This document shows positions 3,360 through 20,401 of a stretch of DNA of 64,000 nucleotides, in pieces. The DNA is taken from assembly GCF_009720385.1 (NCBI RefSeq), contig NZ_ML769306.1, positions 125,005 through 189,004 of the forward strand. The letters are read 5' to 3'. Position 1 is the first letter of the stretch. Every line of letters starts with the position of its first letter. The position numbers and the translations under genes were made by a program. Origin of the DNA: Catellatospora vulcania (GTDB lineage: Bacteria > Actinomycetota > Actinomycetes > Mycobacteriales > Micromonosporaceae). The notes under the pieces are model-generated. The model was not told where the DNA came from. It was given only the letters and a program-made list of their open reading frames with translations, and did not search any database.

Positions 3360-5002
<1,643 letters not shown>

Positions 5003-5268
5003 TGACTGTTGTCGATTGCCCGCCGTGCACCAGGAACGCCTGATCAGCTCCTGCTGGCCACCAGGGCGGACCCGACCTGGCTCCGGGGTCGACGGAGCGG
5101 TGGGGGCGTATTTTTACCGCGAACGCGGCGCGCACACATCATATGTCTTGGCGTTGCGAATCTCGTACCACGTCAGGCGGTTCGCTCCTCGGCGGGCAGG
5201 CCGTGGAGCCGCCGGGGCGGGCGGGGCCCGCCCCGGCGACGAACATCTCGATCAGCGGGAAACCAGGT

Positions 5269-6531
5269 TCACCTGCCCGCGCCCGCGCGCCGCTTGGCGT
5301 AGACGTCGAAGGCGACCGCGCCCAGCAGGACGAGTCCCTTGAAGAGCATCACCTGCTCGGTGGGCGCGCCGATGAGGGACATGCCGTTGTTGATGACACC
5401 CATCATCAGCCCACCGGTGATCGCGCCGACCACGCGCCCGACCCCGCCCTGGACCGCGGCGCCCCCGATGAATGCCGCCGCGATCGCATCGAGCTCGAAT
5501 CCGGTGCCGGCAGTGGGTCCAGCCTGGTTGAGCCGTCCTGCGAACACCATGCCGGCGATGGCGGACAGCACACCCATGTTGACGAACAGCCAGAACGTTA
5601 CCGACTTGACCTTGACGCCGGACAGGGTGGCCGCGTTGATGTTGCCGCCGATGGAGTAGATGTGGCGGCCGAACACCACCCGGTCGGTGAGCAGCGTGTA
5701 GGCGATGACCAGCGCGGCGAGCAGCAGCAGCACCCAGGGCAGGTTCTTGAACCGGGCAAGCTGCACGATCACCGTCATGACGACGACGACGGCCACCGCG
5801 ACCTTGGCCGCGAACTGCGCGACGGGCTCGACCGTCTGGCCGTGACGTACGCGGCCTGCGCGGCTGCGCCACTGCGTCACGATGATCCCGGCGACGAAGG
5901 CCAGCCCGATCAGCAGCGTGCACAGGTCTGCGCCGTCGAGCGGGCCGAGGCCGATGTTGCCCAGGTAGGTCGGCATGAACCCGTTGGCGATGGTGCTGAC
6001 CTCGCTCGGGAAGGGTCCGATGCCCTGATTGCCCAGGACCGCGAGGGTCAGCGCCCGGAACACGAGCATGCCGCCGAGGGTGACGATGAAGGCCGGAATG
6101 CCGAAGTAGGCCACCCAGTAGCCCTGCCAGGCGCCGATCAGGCCACCGCAGATCAGGGTGAGCAGGACTGCCAGCGGCCAGGGCACGGCATGCTCGACCA
6201 TGAGCACCGCGGCTATCGCCCCGGTGGCCGCGACGACCGAGCCGGCGGACAGGTCGATGTGCCCGGCGATGATGATCAGGATCATGCCGATGGCCAGGAT
6301 GAGGATGTAGGAGTTCTGCACCACCAGGTTGGAGATGTTCTGCGGCGCGAGCAGATCACCGTTGGTGAGCACTGCGAACAGGACGATGATCAGCGCGAAG
6401 GCGATGTAGATCCCGTTCTGGCGCAGGTTTGCCGACAGGAGGCGGCCGCTGAACCGCTCCGGCGCGAGAGGGATCCCTGCCTGGTCCTCGGCGGCCGTCG
6501 GCACGGCGGTGTTGGGGCCGACACTGGTCAT
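5269..6531 (-). CDS. monosaccharide ABC transporter permease (MmsB/GguB type)
   Basis: Inner-membrane permease of a CUT2-type sugar importer, 420 residues, with around ten hydrophobic segments. Family features include the conserved stretch AGHIDLSAGSVVA near residue 90 and GGNINAATLSGV near residue 300. A hydrophilic insert around residues 210-230 is typical of the longer GguB/MmsB/XylH permeases. It lies five bases downstream of the ATPase gene and is the last gene of the binding protein-ATPase-permease unit. The substrate is unknown. Arabinose, xylose or galactose would fit the flanking GH43 and GH27 genes, which is inference. Confidence 0.92.
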   Translation of the reverse strand: MTSVGPNTAVPTAAEDQAGIPLAPERFSGRLLSANLRQNGIYIAFALIIVLFAVLTNGDLLAPQNISNLVVQNSYILILAIGMILIIIAGHIDLSAGSVVAATGAIAAVLMVEHAVPWPLAVLLTLICGGLIGAWQGYWVAYFGIPAFIVTLGGMLVFRALTLAVLGNQGIGPFPSEVSTIANGFMPTYLGNIGLGPLDGADLCTLLIGLAFVAGIIVTQWRSRAGRVRHGQTVEPVAQFAAKVAVAVVVVMTVIVQLARFKNLPWVLLLLAALVIAYTLLTDRVVFGRHIYSIGGNINAATLSGVKVKSVTFWLFVNMGVLSAIAGMVFAGRLNQAGPTAGTGFELDAIAAAFIGGAAVQGGVGRVVGAITGGLMMGVINNGMSLIGAPTEQVMLFKGLVLLGAVAFDVYAKRRAGAGR

Positions 6532-6536
6532 CGCGG

Positions 6537-8069
6537 CTACTGCTCCTTAACCTTCGTCATGTACTGCATGAGCCGCTCGGGCGTGGCCTGGTCGCGGGTG
6601 AGCTGTCCGGTGATGCGCCCGGCGGACATCGCGTAGATGCGGTCGCAGACGCCCAGCAGCTCGGGCAGCTCGGAGGAGATGATGAGCAGGGCCTTGCCCT
6701 GGTCCGCCATCATGTTGATGATCGAGTAGATCTCGTATTTCGCACCGACGTCGATGCCCCGGGTGGGCTCGTCCAGGATGAGCACGTCGGCGTCGGTGAA
6801 CAGCCACTTCGACAGCACCACCTTCTGCTGGTTGCCGCCGCTGAGCTTGCCGGTGATCGCGGCGACGCTCGGCGCTTTGATGTTCATGCCGGTGCGGTAG
6901 CCCTCGGCGACGCGGTACTCGTCGTTGTCGTGGATCCAGCCGCGCGTGGACAGCTTGTCCAGCGCGGCGGCGGACACGTTGCGCTTGATGTCCTCGATCA
7001 GGTTCAGGCCGTAGCGTTTGCGGTCCTCGGTGGCGTATCCGATGCCGTGCCTGATCGCGTCGCGGACCGACCTCAGGCGGATCTCGCGACCGTGTTTGAG
7101 GATGCGGCCGGTGATGCCGGTGCCGTAGCTGCGCCCGAACACGCTCATCGCCAGTTCGGTGCGCCCGGCTCCCATCAACCCGGCGAGGCCGACTATCTCG
7201 CCGCGGCGCAGGGTCAGGTTCGCTCCCGAGACCACGGTCCGTCCGTGCTGGGACGGGCTGTGCACTGTCCAGTCCTCGATGCGCAGCACCTCCTCGCCGA
7301 TGTCGGGGACGCGCTCGGGGTAGCGGTGGTCGAGGTCGCGGCCGACCATCGCCGCGATGATGCGCTCCTCGGTCACGGCGTCGGCGGCCATGTCCAGCGT
7401 CTCGACGGTGCGGCCGTCGCGCAGCACGGTCGTGGCGTCGGCGATCGCCTCGATCTCGTTCAGCTTGTGCGAGATGATCACGCAGGTGATGCCGCGGTCG
7501 CGCAGGCCGCGCAGCAGGTCGAGCAGGTGCGCCGAGTCGGTCTCGTTGAGCGCGGCGGTCGGCTCGTCGAGAATGAGCAGCCGCACCTGCTTGGACAGCG
7601 CCTTGGCGATCTCGACCAGCTGCTGCTTGCCGACGCCGAGGTCCATCGCGAGCGTCGCCGGGTTCTCGCGCAGGCCGACGATGTCCAGCAGCCGCGCGGC
7701 GTCGGCATGGGTGCGGTTCCAGTCCACCAGGCCGCGGGTCACCCGCTCGTTGCCCAGGAAGATGTTCTCCGCCACCGACAGGTTCGGGCACAGGGCGAGT
7801 TCCTGGTGGATGATGACGATGCCGAGGCGCTCGCTGTCGCGGATGTCGGAGAACCGGCACGCCTGGCCGTCAAAGACGATCTCGCCGGCGTAGGAGCCGT
7901 GCGGGTACACCCCCGACAGCACCTTCATCAGGGTCGACTTGCCCGCGCCGTTCTCGCCGCAGACGGCGTGGATCTCCCCGCGGCGGACCGTGAGGTTGAC
8001 GTCGTCGAGTGCGGTAACCCCGGGGAAGGTCTTGGTTATGGCCCGCATCTGCAGGATCGCGTCGGTCAC
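6537..8069 (-). CDS. sugar ABC transporter ATP-binding protein (MmsA/GguA type)
   Basis: Duplicated CUT2-type ATPase of 510 residues. The first domain has Walker [10 protein letters not shown] and Walker [12 protein letters not shown]. The second has a degenerate P-loop (GLMGAGRTE), the signature LSGGNQQK and Walker [12 protein letters not shown], the usual asymmetry in this family. The GTG at 8069 is used because GGAAGGGG precedes it by six bases. An in-frame ATG lies six codons upstream, ahead of that Shine-Dalgarno. It energises the permease encoded five bases downstream. Confidence 0.93.
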
Positions 8070-8130: not shown

Positions 8131-9255
8131 TCACTTGAGCTGGGACTCGGTGTAGTAGCCCGTCTCGATCAGCGTCTTGGCGTAGTTGTCCTTGTAGACG
8201 ATCACCGGCTCCAGCAGGTACGACGGGACGACCTTGTTGCCGTTGTCGTAGTCCTTGGTGTTGTTCACCTCGGGCTTGCCGCCCTTGAGCACGGCATCGG
8301 CCATCTTGACCGTGACCTTGGCCAGCTCGCGGGTGTCCTTGTAGATGGTCGCGTACTGCTCTCCCGCGATGATCGACTTGACCGAGGCGACCTCGGCGTC
8401 CTGGCCGGTGACGATCGGGTAGGGCTGGCCGGACGTGCCGTAGCCGCTGCTCTTGAGCGCGGACAGGATGCCGATCGAGAGGCCGTCGTAGGGGGACAGC
8501 ACGCCGTTGACCTTGGCGCCCTTGGCGTACGTCTTGGTGAGGAGGTCCTCCATCCGCTTCTGCGCGGTGGCCGGGTCCCAGCGCAGGATGGCCACGGTCT
8601 TGAAGTCGGTCTCGCCGCTCTTGACCACCAGGGTGCCCTTGTCGAGGTAGGGCTTGAGGGTGTCCATGGCGCCGTTGAAGAAGAAGGTGGCGTTGTTGTC
8701 GTCGGGCGAGCCGGCGAACAGCTCGATGTTGAACGGGCCCTTGGCCGCGCCGTCGGTTCCGTCCGCCTTCTTCAGGCCGAGGCCGACCAGCAGCGAGGTC
8801 GCCTGCTGGACACCCACCTTGTAGTTGTCGAAGGTGGCGTAGTAGTCGACGTTGGGCGACTTGCGGATCAGCCGGTCGTAGGCGATCACCGGGATCTTCT
8901 TGTCGGCCGCCTGCTGCAGCTGGGTGGTGATCGCCGTGCCGTCGATCGAGGCGATGATCAGCAGCTTCGCGCCCTTGGTGATCTGGTTCTCGATCTGGTT
9001 CACCTGGGTCGGGATGTCGTTCTCCGCGTACTGCAGGTCCACCCGGTAGCCCAGGGCCTCCAACTGGGACTTCACGTTGTCGCCGTCGTGGATCCACCGC
9101 TCGGAGGACCTGGTCGGCATCGTCACGCCGACCAGCACGGCGGACGAGTCGCCGCCCGGCTCCTGGTCGCCCGTCTTGGTGCTGGATCCGCAGGCGGCCA
9201 GACCGGCCACGACCATCAGGCCCACTGCGGCGCTGGCCAGTTTCGCGATCTTCAT
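8131..9255 (-). CDS. sugar-binding lipoprotein of the ABC transporter (ChvE-like)
   Basis: Periplasmic-binding-protein-like lipoprotein (375 residues) that should deliver a monosaccharide to the permease encoded downstream. The signal peptide ends in the lipobox LAAC with Cys22. The mature protein has the type I sugar-binding fold typical of ChvE ([13 protein letters not shown], then AYDRLI and VTGQDAE). An ATG with AAGGAG four bases ahead sets the start, and an in-frame extension of 25 codons is rejected for lack of a ribosome site. It is the first gene of the transporter unit, divergent from the GH27 gene, with an operator-like box at its promoter. Confidence 0.93.
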
Positions 9256-12428: not shown

Positions 12429-12611
12429 CGCCATCCCCCGTAGTTGTAGATCATGTCAGGGTCGGTAGGGAAAGTGAGCTTCCTGCCTTGATCACCGGTT
12501 CGGCGATCGACGATCCGTGCAGCTCGAGGCGGCAGATGATCGCCGGCAGCTCGGCCGGCGCGATCGTGGTCGCCCGACTCCGGTCGACTGTGCTCATGAG
12601 CCCACTGTGGG

Positions 12612-12661
12612 CCCTCTCCCTGGGGGAGGGTCCAGAACGGGGCCCTCCCCCAGGGAGAGGG
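12612..12661. promoter_or_regulatory. paired MerR-type operator boxes
   Basis: Two 19-bp boxes, at 12612-12630 and 12643-12661, are exact reverse complements of each other. Each is itself an imperfect dyad (CCCTC and GAGGG ends), the form expected between the -35 and -10 of a MerR-controlled promoter. They lie just ahead of the merR-type start codon and in the gap shared with the divergent SDR gene. The pair could also fold into one large RNA hairpin with a 12-base loop. Confidence 0.6.
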
Positions 12662-12675
12662 CGCAGAATGGCGGC

Positions 12676-13590
12676 ATGCGCCCGGTACTGACGATCGGCG
12701 AGTTCGCCACGCTGACCCACCTGAGCGTGCGTACGCTGCGCCGCTACCACGAGGCCGGGCTGCTGGAACCGGCCCGCGTCGACCCGTTCACCGGCTACCG
12801 CTACTACTCGGCCGACCAGATCCCACCCGCGCAGGTCATCCATCGGCTCCGCGAGCTGGACGTGCCGCTGGCCGAGGTCAGGTCGATCCTGGCCACCGAC
12901 GATCCACAGCGCCGTGCCGACCTCATCACCGGCCACCTGCGCCGCCTGGAGGCGGAGCTGGACCGGACCCGGGCCGCCGTCGTGTCGCTGCGGCAGCTGC
13001 TACGCCCCGACCCGGCTGAACTGCGGGTCGAGCTGCGCTCGGTGCCCGCACGCACGGTCGCCGCGATCACCGGTGACGTCACGCTGGACAGCGCGGTCGC
13101 GTGGTACGCCGCCGCGACGGCCGAACTGGATGCCGCCTATCCGCCGACCGAATGCACCGGTCCGCCCGGCGGCAGATACGCCAACGAGCTGTTCACCGGC
13201 GGCAGCGGGACGATGACCGTGTTCCGGCCCGTGCGCCGGCCGCGCGGAGCGGGCCGGATCGAGGCCCTCACCCTGCCGCCGGTCGACCTGGCCGTCGCCG
13301 TCCACTCCGGGCCGCACGACGATCTCGACGTCACCTACGGCCGCCTGGGCTCGTGGGTGGTCGAGCACGCGCTGGCCGTGAACGGGCCGATCCACGAGAC
13401 CTACCTCGTCGGCCCGCGGGACACCGAGGAGTCTGGCCGGTGGCGTACCGAGATCGGCTGGCCGGTCTTCCGGCTGGCCCTGCCGGCGCCGCTGCGGGCC
13501 GGCCCGACGATCCCGCCCTCGACGACGCCGCGGGCGAGCACGGAGATCCAGCCGTCCGGGTGGCCCGCCACCGGCGACGCGGTGGAATAG
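12676..13590 (+). CDS. MerR-family transcriptional regulator with GyrI-like effector domain
   Basis: Regulator of 304 residues. Residues 1-75 are a MerR winged helix (TIGEFATLTHLSVRTLRRYH, then GYRYYS). A helical coiled segment (residues about 85-115) follows. The C-terminal half (about 118-275) resembles the GyrI/BmrR-type small-molecule-binding domain. Such proteins activate a divergent or own promoter on ligand binding. The ATG at 12676 opens with the MerR motif; the frame continues upstream through the operator boxes, which cannot be coding. The GGGAGAGGG ahead is about 14 bases away, so initiation may be weak. Likely autoregulated through the paired boxes. Confidence 0.88.
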   Translation: MRPVLTIGEFATLTHLSVRTLRRYHEAGLLEPARVDPFTGYRYYSADQIPPAQVIHRLRELDVPLAEVRSILATDDPQRRADLITGHLRRLEAELDRTRAAVVSLRQLLRPDPAELRVELRSVPARTVAAITGDVTLDSAVAWYAAATAELDAAYPPTECTGPPGGRYANELFTGGSGTMTVFRPVRRPRGAGRIEALTLPPVDLAVAVHSGPHDDLDVTYGRLGSWVVEHALAVNGPIHETYLVGPRDTEESGRWRTEIGWPVFRLALPAPLRAGPTIPPSTTPRASTEIQPSGWPATGDAVE

Positions 13591-15887: not shown

Positions 15888-15947
15888 TTGACAACGGCCA
15901 CACCTCGACCTAAAGTCATTCTCAGTTCGAGTTAATCTCATATCGAG
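15888..15947 (+). promoter_or_regulatory. promoter and direct-repeat operator of the Nudix-PurA operon
   Basis: TTGACA (15888-15893) and TAAAGT (15911-15916) are 17 bases apart, a near-consensus promoter. Two 12-bp repeats, TCTCAGTTCGAG (15920-15931) and TCTCATATCGAG (15936-15947), match at 10 of 12 positions with a 16-base period and cover the start region. Each also has CTC/GAG symmetry. The encoded first gene has a winged-helix domain, so autoregulation through these repeats is likely. Confidence 0.6.
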
Positions 15948-15958
15948 AAGGACATGCC

Positions 15959-16687
15959 ATGGTCACCGAGCGCGAGTTCCTCGACGGCTACGACCCGCGG
16001 GCCTACCCGGCGGTCGCGGTCACCGTCGACGTCGTCACGCTCACCATCCGCGACGGCGTCCTGCACGTGCTGCTCGTCGAACGCGGCGAGCAGCCGCACG
16101 CCGGCCGCCTCGCGCTGCCGGGCGGCTTCGTCCGCGAGGAGACACTCGACCAGGCCGCGCTACGCGAGCTCGCCGAGGAGACAGGGATCCTTCCCCGCGT
16201 CCACCTGGAGCAGCTCGCCACGTTCGGCGACCCGGGCCGCGACCCGCGCATGCGGGTGATGTCGGTCGCCTACCTCGCCTTCGCGCCGCACCTGCCCGAG
16301 CCGACCGTCGGCGGCGACGCCGCCGCGGCCCGCTGGGTCCCCGTCGGCGCCGCGTCCGGCCTCGCGTTCGACCACGACGCGATCCTCGCCGCCGGCCTCG
16401 AACGCGCCCGCGCCAAAATCGAGTACACGCCGCTGGCGACCGCGTTCGTGGACGAGCAGTTCACGATCGCGCAGCTGCGCGGCGTGTACACGGCGGTCTG
16501 GGGCGAGGAGCCGCACGCGGGCAACTTCCACCGCAAGGTGCTGTCCGTGCCGGGGTTCATCGCCGACACCGGCGCCACGACCCAGCGCGGCGGCGAACGC
16601 GGCGGCCCCCGGTCCAAGCTCTACCGGGCCGGCGACGCCCGCATCCTGCACCCGGCATTGCTGCGACCCACCCAGGAACCTCGATGA
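15959..16687 (+). CDS. Nudix hydrolase / NrtR-like winged-helix regulator
   Basis: Protein of 242 residues with an N-terminal Nudix fold and a C-terminal winged helix (about 155-235), the arrangement of NrtR regulators, which sense ADP-ribose-type ligands and repress NAD-related genes. The Nudix box is intact (residues 55-77, GGFVREE then REL and EETGI), so hydrolysis is possible. Many NrtR proteins keep only binding. The ATG at 15959 follows AAGGA by seven bases; an ATG five bases earlier is out of frame. Its stop overlaps the next start (ATGA). As first gene of the four-gene unit, it probably controls the repeats just upstream. Confidence 0.85.
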   Translation: MVTEREFLDGYDPRAYPAVAVTVDVVTLTIRDGVLHVLLVERGEQPHAGRLALPGGFVREETLDQAALRELAEETGILPRVHLEQLATFGDPGRDPRMRVMSVAYLAFAPHLPEPTVGGDAAAARWVPVGAASGLAFDHDAILAAGLERARAKIEYTPLATAFVDEQFTIAQLRGVYTAVWGEEPHAGNFHRKVLSVPGFIADTGATTQRGGERGGPRSKLYRAGDARILHPALLRPTQEPR

Positions 16688-17664
16688 ACGCCTTCGACGA
16701 CGCGGTCACCCGGGTGGCGGCCGCACGCACCCCCGGCGACCTGTTCGGCGGCGACAGCGGGCACGCGTACCGGATGCTCGCCAAGGTCCTGCACCCCGAT
16801 GCCGCACCGGCCGGCGCGACCGCGACCGCGACGCACGCGTTCGCGCGGCTCGCGGACCTGTGGGCAGCGCACCGCGACGGCACGGTCATGGTCACCCGCC
16901 GCGGCGCGTACCGCGTCGGGCCGCTGCGGTACGCGGGCGACGTCGCCGACCTGTACACCGTCGACGGCGGCACGGCGCTGCTGAAGCTGCCCCGCCACCC
17001 CGCCGACAGCGACCTCATGCGCCGCGAGGCACGTGCGCTGACCCGGCTGCGCGACCACGGCGAGGCACGCCACCACGCCTACGCCCCGCGGCTGATCGAG
17101 TCGTTCACGCACCGCGACCCCGCCGGCGGCACCCAGCGCACCGCGACGGTCCTCGCCCACCAGGACGGTTTCGTGAACCTGGCCCGGGTCAAGCAGTCCT
17201 ACCCCGACGGCGTCGACCCGCGCGACGCGGCCTGGATGTGGCGGCGGCTGCTCGTCGCCGTCGGCTACGCCCACCACGCCGGTGTCGTCCACGGCGCCAT
17301 CGTGCCCGACCACGTGCTCATCCACCCGGGCGAGCACGGCCTCGTCCTCGTCGACTGGTGCTACAGCAGCACCGAACCCGGCCAGACCGTCCCGGCGCTC
17401 GCCGCCGGGTACCACGACCTCTACCCGCCGGAGGTCACCGGCAAGCAGCCCGCGAGCGAGGCGACCGACATCCACCTCGCGACCCGGTGCATGACCTGGC
17501 TCATGGGCGACCGGACACCACCGGCCCTGGCCCGGTTCGCCCGCGGCTGCACCCTGACCAACCCGAACAACCGACCGCACGACGCGTGGCGGCTGCTCGC
17601 CGAACTCGACGAGCTCCTCGAAGCGCTCTACGGGCCCCGCACCTACCGCCCCTTCACCCTCTAA
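16684..17664 (+). CDS. J-domain-like protein fused to a kinase-like domain lacking the catalytic Asp
   Basis: Unusual 326-residue protein. Residues about 25-62 resemble a J-domain core, with HPD at 37-39 (VLHPDA). Residues about 75-315 have protein-kinase layout: Lys101 (LLKLP), Glu115 (RREA) and an activation-segment Asp224 (LVDWC in place of DFG). The HRD loop reads HGA (203-205), and the following Lys and Asn are Val and His, so the catalytic base is missing. It is predicted to be a pseudokinase that may still bind nucleotide. Translation is coupled to the Nudix gene by ATGA, and the VWA gene follows after ten bases. Function is unknown; a scaffold or chaperone-linked sensor would fit. Confidence 0.72.
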   Translation: MNAFDDAVTRVAAARTPGDLFGGDSGHAYRMLAKVLHPDAAPAGATATATHAFARLADLWAAHRDGTVMVTRRGAYRVGPLRYAGDVADLYTVDGGTALLKLPRHPADSDLMRREARALTRLRDHGEARHHAYAPRLIESFTHRDPAGGTQRTATVLAHQDGFVNLARVKQSYPDGVDPRDAAWMWRRLLVAVGYAHHAGVVHGAIVPDHVLIHPGEHGLVLVDWCYSSTEPGQTVPALAAGYHDLYPPEVTGKQPASEATDIHLATRCMTWLMGDRTPPALARFARGCTLTNPNNRPHDAWRLLAELDELLEALYGPRTYRPFTL

Positions 17665-17674
17665 GGAGCAGATC

Positions 17675-18640
17675 ATGGGAAGTGGACGATGGTCCACCGA
17701 CGTCTACGCGGCCACCGCCAAGTACCGCAAAGCGACCGGCGCGAGCGCGTTCGCCTACAGCGACTCCGGCGCGCGTACGGTACACGACGCGCTCAACCCG
17801 CACGGTGTCACGATGCGGGAGAGCCGCGACAGCGACCAGCACCCGAACTCGACGCCGATCGCGATCCTGTTCGACGTGACCGGGTCGATGGGCTCGGTGC
17901 CGCGGGTGCTGCAGACCAAACTGCCGGAACTGTTCGGCCTGCTGATCCGCAAGGGCTACTGCACCGACCCGCAGATCCTGTTCGGCGCGATCGGTGACGC
18001 CACCTGCGACCGGGCGCCGCTGCAGATCGGGCAGTTCGAGTCCGACAACCGCACCGACGACGACCTCGGCCGGATCCTGCTCGAAGGCGGCGGCGGCGGG
18101 CAGCGCACCGAGTCCTACGAACTCGCCATGTACTTCATGGCCCGCCACACCGACCTCGACGCCGTCGCCCGCGGCCGGCGCGGCTACCTGTTCATCATCG
18201 GCGACGAGATGGCCTACCCGCGGGTCAAGCCCGACGAGGTACGCCGCGTCGTCGGCGACACGATCGCCGAGCCGATCAGCACCGAGGCGATCGTCGCCGA
18301 GCTGCGCCGCAGCTACGACGTGTACTTCATCATGCCCGCCCAGGCCAGCTACACCGGCGACGCCGAGATCCTCGGGTTCTGGCGCAGGCTGCTCGGCCAG
18401 CACGTCATCGAACTCGACGACCTCGACGCCGTCTGCGAAACCATCGCCCTGACCGTCGGGCTCGGCGAGGACGCCACCGACCTGGACTCGGGGCTGGTCG
18501 ACCTCGCCGACGCCGGATCGGCGGCCGGCCCGACCGTCGGCAAGGCGCTCGCCCCGCTCGGCAGCACCCGCGGCGCACTGGTCCGCTCGGCGCTGCCGGC
18601 CGGGTTCGGCGACCGGGCCACGCCGGTGACCCGGCTGTGA
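17675..18640 (+). CDS. von Willebrand factor A (VWA)-domain protein
   Basis: Cytosolic VWA-type protein of 321 residues without signal peptide or membrane segment. The metal-dependent adhesion site is DVTGS (Asp67, Thr69, Ser71), with a likely third ligand at Thr145 (QRTES) and an acidic loop GDE at 177-178. The fold runs to about residue 255 (YFIMPA, then ELDDLDAV), followed by a Gly/Ala-rich tail. AAGGAG lies six bases ahead of ATG. The gene is sandwiched between the pseudokinase and the PurA-like gene and overlaps the latter by GTGA. VWA and kinase pairs occur in TerY-type systems, but homology to those was not tested. Confidence 0.75.
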   Translation: MGSGRWSTDVYAATAKYRKATGASAFAYSDSGARTVHDALNPHGVTMRESRDSDQHPNSTPIAILFDVTGSMGSVPRVLQTKLPELFGLLIRKGYCTDPQILFGAIGDATCDRAPLQIGQFESDNRTDDDLGRILLEGGGGGQRTESYELAMYFMARHTDLDAVARGRRGYLFIIGDEMAYPRVKPDEVRRVVGDTIAEPISTEAIVAELRRSYDVYFIMPAQASYTGDAEILGFWRRLLGQHVIELDDLDAVCETIALTVGLGEDATDLDSGLVDLADAGSAAGPTVGKALAPLGSTRGALVRSALPAGFGDRATPVTRL

Positions 18641-19869
18641 CCGAGCCCCGCCACGTCATCGTCGTCGACCTCGGCTACGGCGACGCCGGCAAGGGCACCA
18701 TCGTGGACTGGCTCTGCGCGACCCGGCCGGTGAGCACCGTGATCCGGTTCAACGGGGGCGCGCAGGCCGCCCACAACGTGGTGACGCCCGACGGGCGTCA
18801 CCACACCTTCGCCCAGTTCGGCTCCGGGACCCTGCACGGGGTACGCACCCACCTGTCCCGGTTCATGATGGTCGACCCGCTGGCGCTGGCCACGGAGGCC
18901 GGGCACCTGGCGGAGCTGGGCGTGGCCGCGCCGTTCGAACTGCTCACCGTCGACCGGCGGGCCCTGCTGACCACGCCGTGGCATCGGGCCGCCAACCGCC
19001 GCCGCGAAGCCGCACGCGGCGACGACCGGCACGGGTCGTGCGGCATGGGCGTCGGCGAGACCGCCGCGTTCGCGCTGGCCCACCCCGACCTCGCGGTCCG
19101 CGCCGGCGACACCGAGTCCCCGGCCGCGCTGAAACGCAAGCTCGGCGCGGTCCGCGACGCGCTCACCGCCGAACTCGGACCTCTCGACGCGCCACCGGTC
19201 GCCGCCGTCGCCGAGGCCTTCCGGTGGTTCGGGACCGCGGTCCGGCTCGTCTCCTCGTCCCGGCAGGCGCTGTCCGGCCCGTGCGTCTTCGAAGGAGCCC
19301 AGGGGGTGCTGCTGGACGAATGGCGTGGCTGGCACCCCTACACCACCTGGTCCACCACCACCTTCGACAACGCCGAGACGCTGCTGGCCACCGACGGCGA
19401 CGGCGACGGCGACGCCCTGCGCCTGGGCATCGTGCGCACCTACACCACCCGCCACGGCGCAGGACCTCTCGTCACCGAGGATCCGCAGCTCACGGCGGCG
19501 CTGCCGGAACGGCACAACGGCCACGGCCGATGGCAGGGCGCGTGGCGGGCCGGTCACTTCGACGCCGTCGCCCACCGCTACGCCGTCGAGGTCTGCGGCG
19601 GCGTCGACGCGCTCGCCGTCACCCACACCGACACGGCCGAACACCACAAGCTGAAGATGTGCCTGGCGTACGGGCAGCTGGACCGGATCGTGCCCGGCGA
19701 GCGCGGCGATCTGGCGTACCAGGAGAAGCTCACCCAGACGTTGAGCACCGCCACCCCGGTCTACACGGGGCTCGGCGATCCCGGAGAGGTGCTCGGCGTT
19801 CCGGTCGCGGTCACCTCATTCGGCCCGACCTGCGCAGACAAGGCGCAGCGGTCCACGCGGTCGCGGTGA
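18637..19869 (+). CDS. divergent adenylosuccinate synthetase (PurA) paralogue
   Basis: PurA-family protein of 410 residues, slightly short for the family. PurA makes adenylosuccinate from IMP, Asp and GTP. The N-terminal loop GYGDAGKGTIVD keeps the catalytic Asp, and GGAQAAHNVV keeps the catalytic His. The aspartate-binding loop (TTTGRPRR in typical PurA) is replaced by a longer stretch (HNGHGRWQGAWRAG). The guanine-specifying TKLD is THTD, and the TTGRGIGP loop is SCGMGVGE. It is therefore probably not housekeeping PurA and may use a different amino donor or nucleotide. The GTG start overlaps the VWA stop codon. Confidence 0.82.
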   Translation: MTEPRHVIVVDLGYGDAGKGTIVDWLCATRPVSTVIRFNGGAQAAHNVVTPDGRHHTFAQFGSGTLHGVRTHLSRFMMVDPLALATEAGHLAELGVAAPFELLTVDRRALLTTPWHRAANRRREAARGDDRHGSCGMGVGETAAFALAHPDLAVRAGDTESPAALKRKLGAVRDALTAELGPLDAPPVAAVAEAFRWFGTAVRLVSSSRQALSGPCVFEGAQGVLLDEWRGWHPYTTWSTTTFDNAETLLATDGDGDGDALRLGIVRTYTTRHGAGPLVTEDPQLTAALPERHNGHGRWQGAWRAGHFDAVAHRYAVEVCGGVDALAVTHTDTAEHHKLKMCLAYGQLDRIVPGERGDLAYQEKLTQTLSTATPVYTGLGDPGEVLGVPVAVTSFGPTCADKAQRSTRSR

Positions 19870-19901
19870 CGGGTTGTCCTCGGCCATGGCGCAGCGGCGA
19901 C

Positions 19902-20234
19902 CTACGCCGACTCGTGCAGCGGCCACACCTCGACGACTCCGTGCGCGATCGCGCACGGAGTCGCGGCCACGGCTTCGATCGCCTCGTCCAGCGAGGCCGC
20001 TTCGATGAGGGCGAACCCGGCCACGGGAAGTCCAGCCGACATGAACGGACCCTTCTCGACGACCACGCCGGTGGCGTCATGATTTCTCACCTGCACCGGC
20101 GCGCCGGCGATCCCCGACTCGGCACCGGCCTCCCGCAGCCGCGCATCATGGGCATGCGCGCGGTCGCGCAGCTCAGCGGCGGTACGGTCGTATCCGGCCT
20201 GGTCGCCGTATCCGATGGTCAAGAACTTCGCCAT
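19902..20234 (-). CDS. YciI/DGPF-domain protein
   Basis: Small cytosolic protein of 110 residues with the YCII-related fold. The DGPF-like motif is EKGPF, followed by AGFALIEAASLDEAIEAV, which is typical of the family (often found near ECF sigma genes; none is seen here). Start ATG has GGAAGGA ahead, and an in-frame extension upstream lacks support. It converges on the PurA-like gene with a 32-base gap, and its 3' part contains a 30-bp perfect palindrome. Function unknown. Confidence 0.8.
   Translation of the reverse strand: MAKFLTIGYGDQAGYDRTAAELRDRAHAHDARLREAGAESGIAGAPVQVRNHDATGVVVEKGPFMSAGLPVAGFALIEAASLDEAIEAVAATPCAIAHGVVEVWPLHESA
19934..19963. terminator. 30-bp perfect palindrome within the YciI-like gene
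   Basis: The segment is an exact 30-bp palindrome (CGACTCCGTGCGCGA and its complement). It lies 65 bases past the stop of the PurA-like gene and inside the oppositely read YciI-like coding region. It is well placed to terminate the Nudix-PurA operon. The codons it spans (TPCAIAHG in the protein) are compatible with the fold. Confidence 0.5.
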
Positions 20235-20401
20235 GACGCGGTCCTTCCGTGGCAGGAGGTCACCGAGCCAGACGATCCGGTGACACCTACCGACTCGCCG
20301 ATCAGGCGGGCGATGAAACCTACCCAGCACACCTGCGGGTGCCGTCGCCCCGTTGAGCGGCTTGCATCCTGCCCTACAGACGCCGCGTCCACGCGCTCAC
20401 C

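Follow-up and report, generated by a model that had tools for sequence, protein, structure and literature searches.

Among described systems, the closest to the locus considered here are the ARG-centred host systems of actinobacteria and proteobacteria, in which, as far as the excerpted text of PMC9503650 goes, a Nudix-type negative regulator and a vWA protein likewise occur in one neighbourhood. We analysed a 64,000-nucleotide stretch of Catellatospora vulcania DNA (contig NZ_ML769306.1, positions 125,005 to 189,004; hereafter the window), which carries a four-gene operon encoding an NrtR-like regulator (NUD), a J-domain pseudokinase (KIN), a von Willebrand A-fold protein (VWA) and a member of the PurA superfamily (PUR). 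This operon is one form of a gene module around a changed PurA-type enzyme, and the module is carried by many phages too. A preliminary description of the locus, made from the sequence alone, had known of no characterised system with this set, and we likewise found no description of it, although this absence is not proof because the search covered open-access full text only; the module is undescribed in the literature searched, and by its enzyme/VWA core it is no member of any family tested.

Comparison with relatives confirmed that the four genes form one conserved unit. We collected close relatives with a one-sequence VWA scan of genome contigs, keeping the best 80 of 220 stretches, and 72 of these 80 actinobacterial relatives have the complete set of four, with order and strand conserved. 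The eight exceptions comprise three loci cut by contig ends (L034, L057, L081), four without KIN (L020, L031, L037, L038) and one without KIN and PUR (L067). In the window, the coordinates of the open reading frames (ORFs) place NUD and KIN in a four-base overlap (ATGA), KIN and VWA ten bases apart, and VWA and PUR in another four-base overlap (GTGA), behind one near-consensus promoter-like site, TTGACA-17-TAAAGT, found once against a mean of 0.1 in shuffles; a looser form, TTG[AG]C-(17-20)-TA...T, occurs in 34 of 79 upstream regions (mean 0.6 in simple shuffles). Ratios of nonsynonymous to synonymous substitution (dN/dS) of 0.09-0.36 against five Catellatospora show that all four genes are under purifying selection. 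In Pfam, NUD matched NUDIX (7.8e-19) and NrtR_WHD (1.6e-9), both above cut-off, PUR matched Adenylsucc_synt (2e-55), KIN matched kinase (2e-4) and DnaJ (0.037) models below cut-off, and VWA of the window had no match. The packing, the single promoter-like site, the four genes as one unit and the identities given in the preliminary description (an NrtR-like regulator, a J-like pseudokinase, a VWA protein with an intact metal-ion-dependent adhesion site (MIDAS), and a PurA paralogue with altered substrate loops) are all borne out by these data and by the residue counts below; what that description missed is that the module is widely phage-borne and that the regulator has its own operator.

Table 1 Features of the four-gene operon, in window coordinates
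Feature	Coordinates	Strand	Description	Basis
NUD	15959..16687	+	NrtR-like regulator, Nudix domain with intact box and NrtR winged helix	Pfam, residue alignment, PDB comparison
KIN	16684..17664	+	J-domain (HPD at residues 37-39) fused to predicted pseudokinase (HGA replaces HRD)	Profile, predicted model, alignment
VWA	17675..18640	+	Von Willebrand A-fold (predicted), MIDAS DVTGS (67-71), conserved GG..E.Y and GDE	Model, alignment
PUR	18637..19869	+	PurA superfamily, altered amino-acid and phosphate pockets	Pfam, residue alignment
Promoter-like site	15888..15916	+	TTGACA-17-TAAAGT	Pattern search against shuffles
Operator-like site	15921..15947	+	Pair of CTCAN4GAG palindromes at 16-bp spacing, four bases past the -10 box	Upstream-region comparison

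Within this unit, the distribution of VWA and PUR across genomes indicates that these two are tightly paired and nearly always found together. The VWA of the 8.83-Mb source genome is 90-95% identical to that of five named Catellatospora, and VWA was matched in all but one (G527) of the 11 genomes belonging to the genus. The VWA query matched 5 of 396 genomes sampled across the phylum, two of them strongly, and was found in 109 of 200 Micromonosporaceae genomes. PUR of this type (E ≤ 1e-60) is present in 108 of the 109 VWA-bearing genomes and in none of the other 91; in the sole VWA genome without it (G551), two stops interrupt the VWA frame, i.e., the copy is broken. Plasmids of several genera also bear the genes, in the order KIN, VWA, PUR, NUD in Rhodococcus and Tsukamurella, and with NUD on the opposite strand followed by KIN, VWA and PUR in Agrobacterium, Acetobacter and R. 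leguminosarum, while the Variovorax set is without a NUD match and Methylorubrum gave only VWA and PUR matches. Mechanical gene calls yielded no conserved fifth gene, the next gene cluster covering only 19 of 85 loci, and neither an ADP-ribosylglycohydrolase nor a phosphatase lies in the four-gene operon; a small conserved gene may have been missed, since this crude caller recovered the four known genes in only 48-73 of the 85 loci.

The enzyme itself appears to be altered rather than degraded. The source genome encodes a canonical PurA elsewhere (617 bits) in addition to the PUR paralogue (188 bits), and PUR scores 149.9 bits against the NCBIfam PurA equivalog model, whose cut-off is 402. In E. 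coli PurA, Asp13, His41 and Gln224 are needed for purine chemistry and activation of the 6-oxo group, and an Asp occupies the guanine site. Across 94 PUR rows from bacteria and named phages (E. coli numbering, L064 left out), Asp13, Lys16, His41, Gln224 and Thr239 are invariant and Asp333 is present in 92. Arg303, by contrast, is absent in all 94, Arg143 is retained in 3, none of the rows listed for position 305 (93 of 94) has Arg there, and the TTGRxRR aspartate loop is lost, with other residues exchanged in a consistent manner: Asn38 to Gln and Thr129 to Cys (93 rows each), Val273 to His and Thr301 to Gln (94 each), and Lys331 to His (88). The same holds in 74 rows from IMG/VR (nine viral loci, recognised as near-copies from their matching coordinates, having been dropped from the IMG/VR residue counts), all of which keep Asp13, Lys16, His41 and Gln224, lack Arg303 and have His for Val273; Thr301 is Gln in 72, with more latitude at Thr129 (Cys in 43, Val in 28) and Lys331 (His in 36, Cys in 32). 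If the residue roles of E. coli PurA carry over, PUR has kept the activation chemistry and the guanine-site Asp, while the aspartate site and most contacts to the phosphate of IMP have been replaced by a family-specific set, which argues for a changed substrate and not for decay. We also considered whether PUR is a PurZ and rejected this (24.6 bits against NF038379, cut-off 300).

Upstream of the operon, a tandem operator conserved next to the -10 box, together with its one exact genomic site, points to NUD as a dedicated NrtR-like repressor. The pattern CTCN5GAG-N5-CTCN5GAG occurs in 64 of 79 upstream regions, compared with 0.0 in simple base shuffles, and a TANNNT box ends three bases 5' of it in 45 of these 64 and four bases in 10, the window's kind included. 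In its exact form, CTCAN4GAGN5CTCAN4GAG, the operator occurs once in the source genome, at 15921-15947; at one mismatch, where the search stopped, there is one further genomic site, and a reversed-pattern control likewise gave one. Eight of the 11 genomes of the genus have a single exact site, located roughly 1.7-1.8 kb before VWA at the start of NUD, while the only exact site of G512 lies elsewhere and G503 and G527 have none. Given this single site at the start of NUD in most of the genus, NUD most likely regulates this operon only, and we found no exact operator site beyond this operon in the source genome that would suggest NrtR-type control of NAD biosynthesis genes. The nearest solved structures to NUD are 3gz5/3gz6, which we take to be Shewanella NrtR, and AraR, with a NadQ match covering the winged helix. 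An intact Nudix box is seen in most of 86 NUD rows; the four proteobacterial rows and the Rhodococcus and Tsukamurella rows shown have lost it. In Actinoplanes siamensis (L067), where only NUD and VWA are present, inspection by eye revealed a CTC..GAG-like repeat array before NUD (6902-7001), as might arise if loss of KIN and PUR had gone along with amplification of the operator.

The module extends well beyond bacterial chromosomes and plasmids. Phage records with a match to VWA number 189 for Mycobacterium, 10 for Rhizobium and 6 for Vibrio, and the numbers for PUR are the same (duplicate accessions counted); the pair is also on a faecal phage record; the mycobacteriophages that bear it have a lytic lifestyle. 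Sebata (Bixzunavirus) carries KIN, VWA, a small gene and PUR, the small ORF lying at 8738-9004 of that locus, while in Vibrio phage Va1 and Rhizobium phage RHph_TM2_3B VWA is followed by PUR, and KIN gave no match. A profile scan of IMG/VR confirmed 430 stretches, of which 80 were kept, and together with earlier scans we read 87 viral VWA loci (at least two contigs counted twice): PUR is present in 85, KIN in 60 and a NUD-profile match in 6, two of which (L136 and L142) are shown with the NrtR winged helix. At 70% identity these loci fall into 46 VWA clusters, with PUR in 44 and KIN in 33, and a Terminase_6N gene is on 13 of 47 IMG/VR records tested. The VWA and adenylosuccinate synthase genes of Kuttervirus are listed apart in the excerpted text of PMC10892097 and our VWA tallies hold no Salmonella phage, so we did not count these as the module. 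Two further observations concern phage neighbourhoods: a conserved phage protein of about 273 amino acids lies directly upstream of VWA in five loci from four clusters (L118-L122, around 4700-6000), and one Rhizobium phage locus (L104, 2890-5226) has, upstream of VWA/PUR, a PRTase_3 (ComF-like) gene, a Nudix gene and a hydrolase gene with a dehalogenase-like annotation.

A tree built from 71 VWA rows, 49 of them viral and 22 bacterial, requires 6 label changes between viral and bacterial copies, at least 3 of which are forced by well-supported branches. The copies thus interleave in a pattern that indicates several exchanges between phages and bacteria; the tree gives no direction, and its interleaving is biased by sampling (80 of 220 and 80 of 430 stretches kept), with viral diversity favoured. 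These data bear on the idea, raised in the preliminary description, that the operon is a bacterial anti-phage defence system, which would be repressed until infection. Its patchiness among Micromonosporaceae, its presence on plasmids and a Nudix repressor like that of predicted conflict systems (in the consulted portion of PMC9503650) would all suit such a role. However, mycobacteriophage genomes regularly include these genes, a kinase and a PurA-like gene are called unique to and conserved in all C1 phages in the consulted portion of PMC9476963, and none of the four proteins is toxin-like. Among 130 flanking proteins searched with PADLOC (of 140 from 29 loci, ten of L084/L085 left out on account of a size limit), 23 families were matched at 1e-10, one protein each and without a background set, so that no family recurs among them. 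We therefore regard a defence function as unlikely.

VWA and KIN may have chaperone-like roles. VWA has no PDB sequence match, and 36 members gave no match to a Pfam VWA model. A VWA fold is nevertheless supported by its predicted model (mean predicted local distance difference test score (pLDDT) of 75), which Foldseek matched to an integrin I domain at 4e-7 (template-modelling (TM) score 0.39 by query, 0.59 by target), and the D/T/S of the MIDAS motif DxTxS are present in 95 of 97 rows. For KIN, a profile matched kinases at 3e-11 and, over positions 23-69, DnaJ J-domains at around 2e-6, with the predicted model (pLDDT 94) also matching kinases. HPD is retained in 85 of 88 rows, and the catalytic Asp of HRD in none; H37, P38 and D39 are among eight invariant positions in 35 diverse rows, and in 54 IMG/VR rows each HPD residue is kept in 46-47 and the catalytic Asp in 1. 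From this near-universal HPD and missing Asp, KIN is judged to be a J-domain protein with a dead kinase fold. One could imagine that VWA and PUR together form a GTP-driven protein-remodelling machine comparable to MoxR/VWA pairs, with PUR making no metabolite, since one of the matches of the VWA model is a chain of the NorQD complex (1.8e-5), the fold of PurA is of the P-loop type, and a J-domain partner hints at chaperone work; yet Asp13, His41 and Gln224, with their roles in purine chemistry, are invariant in both sets of PUR rows, and we consider this decidedly unlikely. The preliminary description had also linked the VWA/kinase pairing to TerY-type stress modules, a link to which the PRTase_3 gene and the dehalogenase-like hydrolase gene of one Rhizobium phage, within a few kb of its VWA/PUR pair, might add. 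We reject it as highly improbable for a VWA, kinase and nucleotide-synthesis stress module, given that the kinase fold is dead and that no TerD family member was found in the source genome.

An independent hint at function comes from NAD metabolism. In three phage contigs, genes for NAD salvage are interleaved with the module: L136 (a 416-kb contig) carries NUD, VWA, an NMNAT/Nudix-like gene, NAMPT, PUR and KIN consecutively, L142 (512 kb) carries NUD, NAMPT, VWA, PUR and KIN, and L118 carries NMNAT-Nudix, other genes, VWA, PUR and NAMPT. Overall, NAPRTase-family genes occur in 5 of 50 viral records and adjoin the module in these 3, lying about 14 kb away in L190 and about 156 kb away in L160; with an NMNAT-Nudix query, 11 of the 50 gave a match, of which 2 were strong and the others lay mostly over the Nudix part. 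Among 150 viral neighbours (of 162 chosen in viral clusters), NAMPT and Nudix tie for first in Pfam with 3 each, two of the Nudix being NUD genes themselves, and in PHROGs nicotinamide phosphoribosyl transferase and MutT/NUDIX lead jointly with 3 each. The preliminary description's hints at signalling and NAD are partly supported, the NAD hint gaining some independent support from the three phage neighbourhoods.

On this basis we propose, as a tentative reading to which we give somewhat less than even confidence, a repressor-controlled, phage-shared, GTP-driven enzyme/chaperone module linked to purines or NAD. NUD would bind the operator and repress the operon until an ADP-ribose-type nucleotide ligand arrives. 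Like PurA, PUR would phosphorylate a purine 6-oxo group at the expense of GTP, but its purine-containing substrate would be other than plain IMP and the attacking group other than aspartate; a purine nucleotide linked to NAD or ADP-ribose, or altered in some other way, could be what the module repairs or converts. VWA may act as a Mg-dependent peptide binder and KIN as a recruiter of DnaK, its kinase fold serving as a docking or nucleotide-sensing surface, and the two could act on PUR or its target by assembling, presenting or regulating it. In the phages, where NUD is mostly absent, the module would help to keep the nucleotide/NAD pool usable during infection.

Several observations weigh against this proposal. 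NAPRTase-family genes were not found in 45 of the 50 viral records nor in the source genome, and neither NAMPT nor NAPRTase is in the bacterial operon, which makes the NAD link a pattern of the minority. NadV is frequent among large phages (22% of medium and 33% of jumbo phages, according to the excerpted text of PMC9503650), so its presence alone means little and interleaving means more. In bacteria, 4 of the 108 PUR matches cross one stop codon (G494, G413, G554, G423) and the match is split in two pieces in three genomes (G498, G478, G492); a Rhodovulum plasmid locus (L110) has NUD, KIN and VWA with no PUR match, and L067, L141 and L184 have no PUR within the stretch read. The reversed-pattern operator control gave 3 matches in the 11 genomes of the genus. 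Among the 54 viral KIN rows, Lys is kept in 27 and Glu in 29, and the J-domain is missing in 5; KIN appears accessory, because it is missing at some loci.

Alternatively, the module could make a modified purine nucleotide (a signal, an antimetabolite or a genome precursor) unrelated to NAD, with NUD sensing the product. Changed nucleophile and phosphate pockets beside intact activation residues fit this idea, as do nrdD/nrdG about 4 kb upstream of the pair in Vibrio phage Va1 and the one ribonucleotide reductase among the 150 viral neighbours. The 25 Pfam families shown, however, include no recurrent transporter, kinase or polymerase partner, PurZ as the known genome-modifying relative is a misfit, and the NAMPT links would be a coincidence; we rate this as possible if somewhat unlikely. 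A further reading is a new class of phage metabolic counter-immunity, in which a GTP-driven complex of VWA, PUR and the J-pseudokinase would restore purine nucleotides or dinucleotides damaged by host immunity (e.g., deaminated or ADP-ribose-derived forms), serving many phage lineages and having been exchanged several times with bacteria, which keep it under an NrtR-type repressor. We hold this to be rather unlikely.

Two features near the operon deserve mention. The palindrome that the preliminary description placed at the end of the operon does exist, as a perfect 28-bp sequence at 19935-19962, but we reject it as an operon terminator since it sits within a convergent ORF (19902-20330) and, although L006 and L007 have near copies, is missing from the 250 bases examined at L008-L010, where the next gene differs; it belongs to that neighbouring gene, whose product presumably resembles a YCII-type protein and had no Pfam match at 1e-5. 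Upstream of the operon region, the window encodes a MerR-family regulator with a GyrI-like ligand domain (12517-13590).

Taken together, these findings bring together, as one module, genes dispersed over many phages and actinobacteria under the names "PurA-like", "kinase" and "hypothetical". It offers a tightly linked enzyme/VWA pair, a reaction with testable residues, and a one-operator regulator whose ligand would name the pathway, as well as, in KIN, a bacterial J-domain/pseudokinase protein for study. Finding the reaction of PUR would show why phages and bacteria both need the module, and if the NAD or purine-repair reading is true, it would represent a new arm of phage-host nucleotide conflict.

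Compared with known systems, the nearest published idea is that of the ARG-centred Nudix/vWA host systems, which, in the portion of PMC9503650 consulted, share the repressor type and the vWA protein with the module and not the enzyme; the module has a PurA-like protein and a J-pseudokinase and is also phage-borne. NUD resembles NrtR in its Nudix domain and winged helix, and differs in that its Nudix box is mostly intact in actinobacterial rows and its exact operator occurs once in the genome, at its own operon. PUR shares with PurA its sequence family, the guanine-site Asp and the 6-oxo activation residues, while lacking the aspartate loop and, nearly always, Arg143, and carrying His for Val273; like PurZ it is a PurA relative found in phages, although it keeps Asp13 and scores far below the PurZ cut-off. 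The phage NAD salvage systems, NadV/NadM and NARP1 (in the excerpts of PMC9503650 and PMC12774641, respectively), correspond to the NAMPT/NMNAT-like genes interleaved with the module in three phage contigs, whereas such genes are found neither in the bacterial operon nor in most viral records tested. Finally, PHROGs 3043, 2971 (listed there as of unknown function) and 1211 cover KIN, VWA and PUR, respectively, but as separate families, which the present analysis joins in one module.

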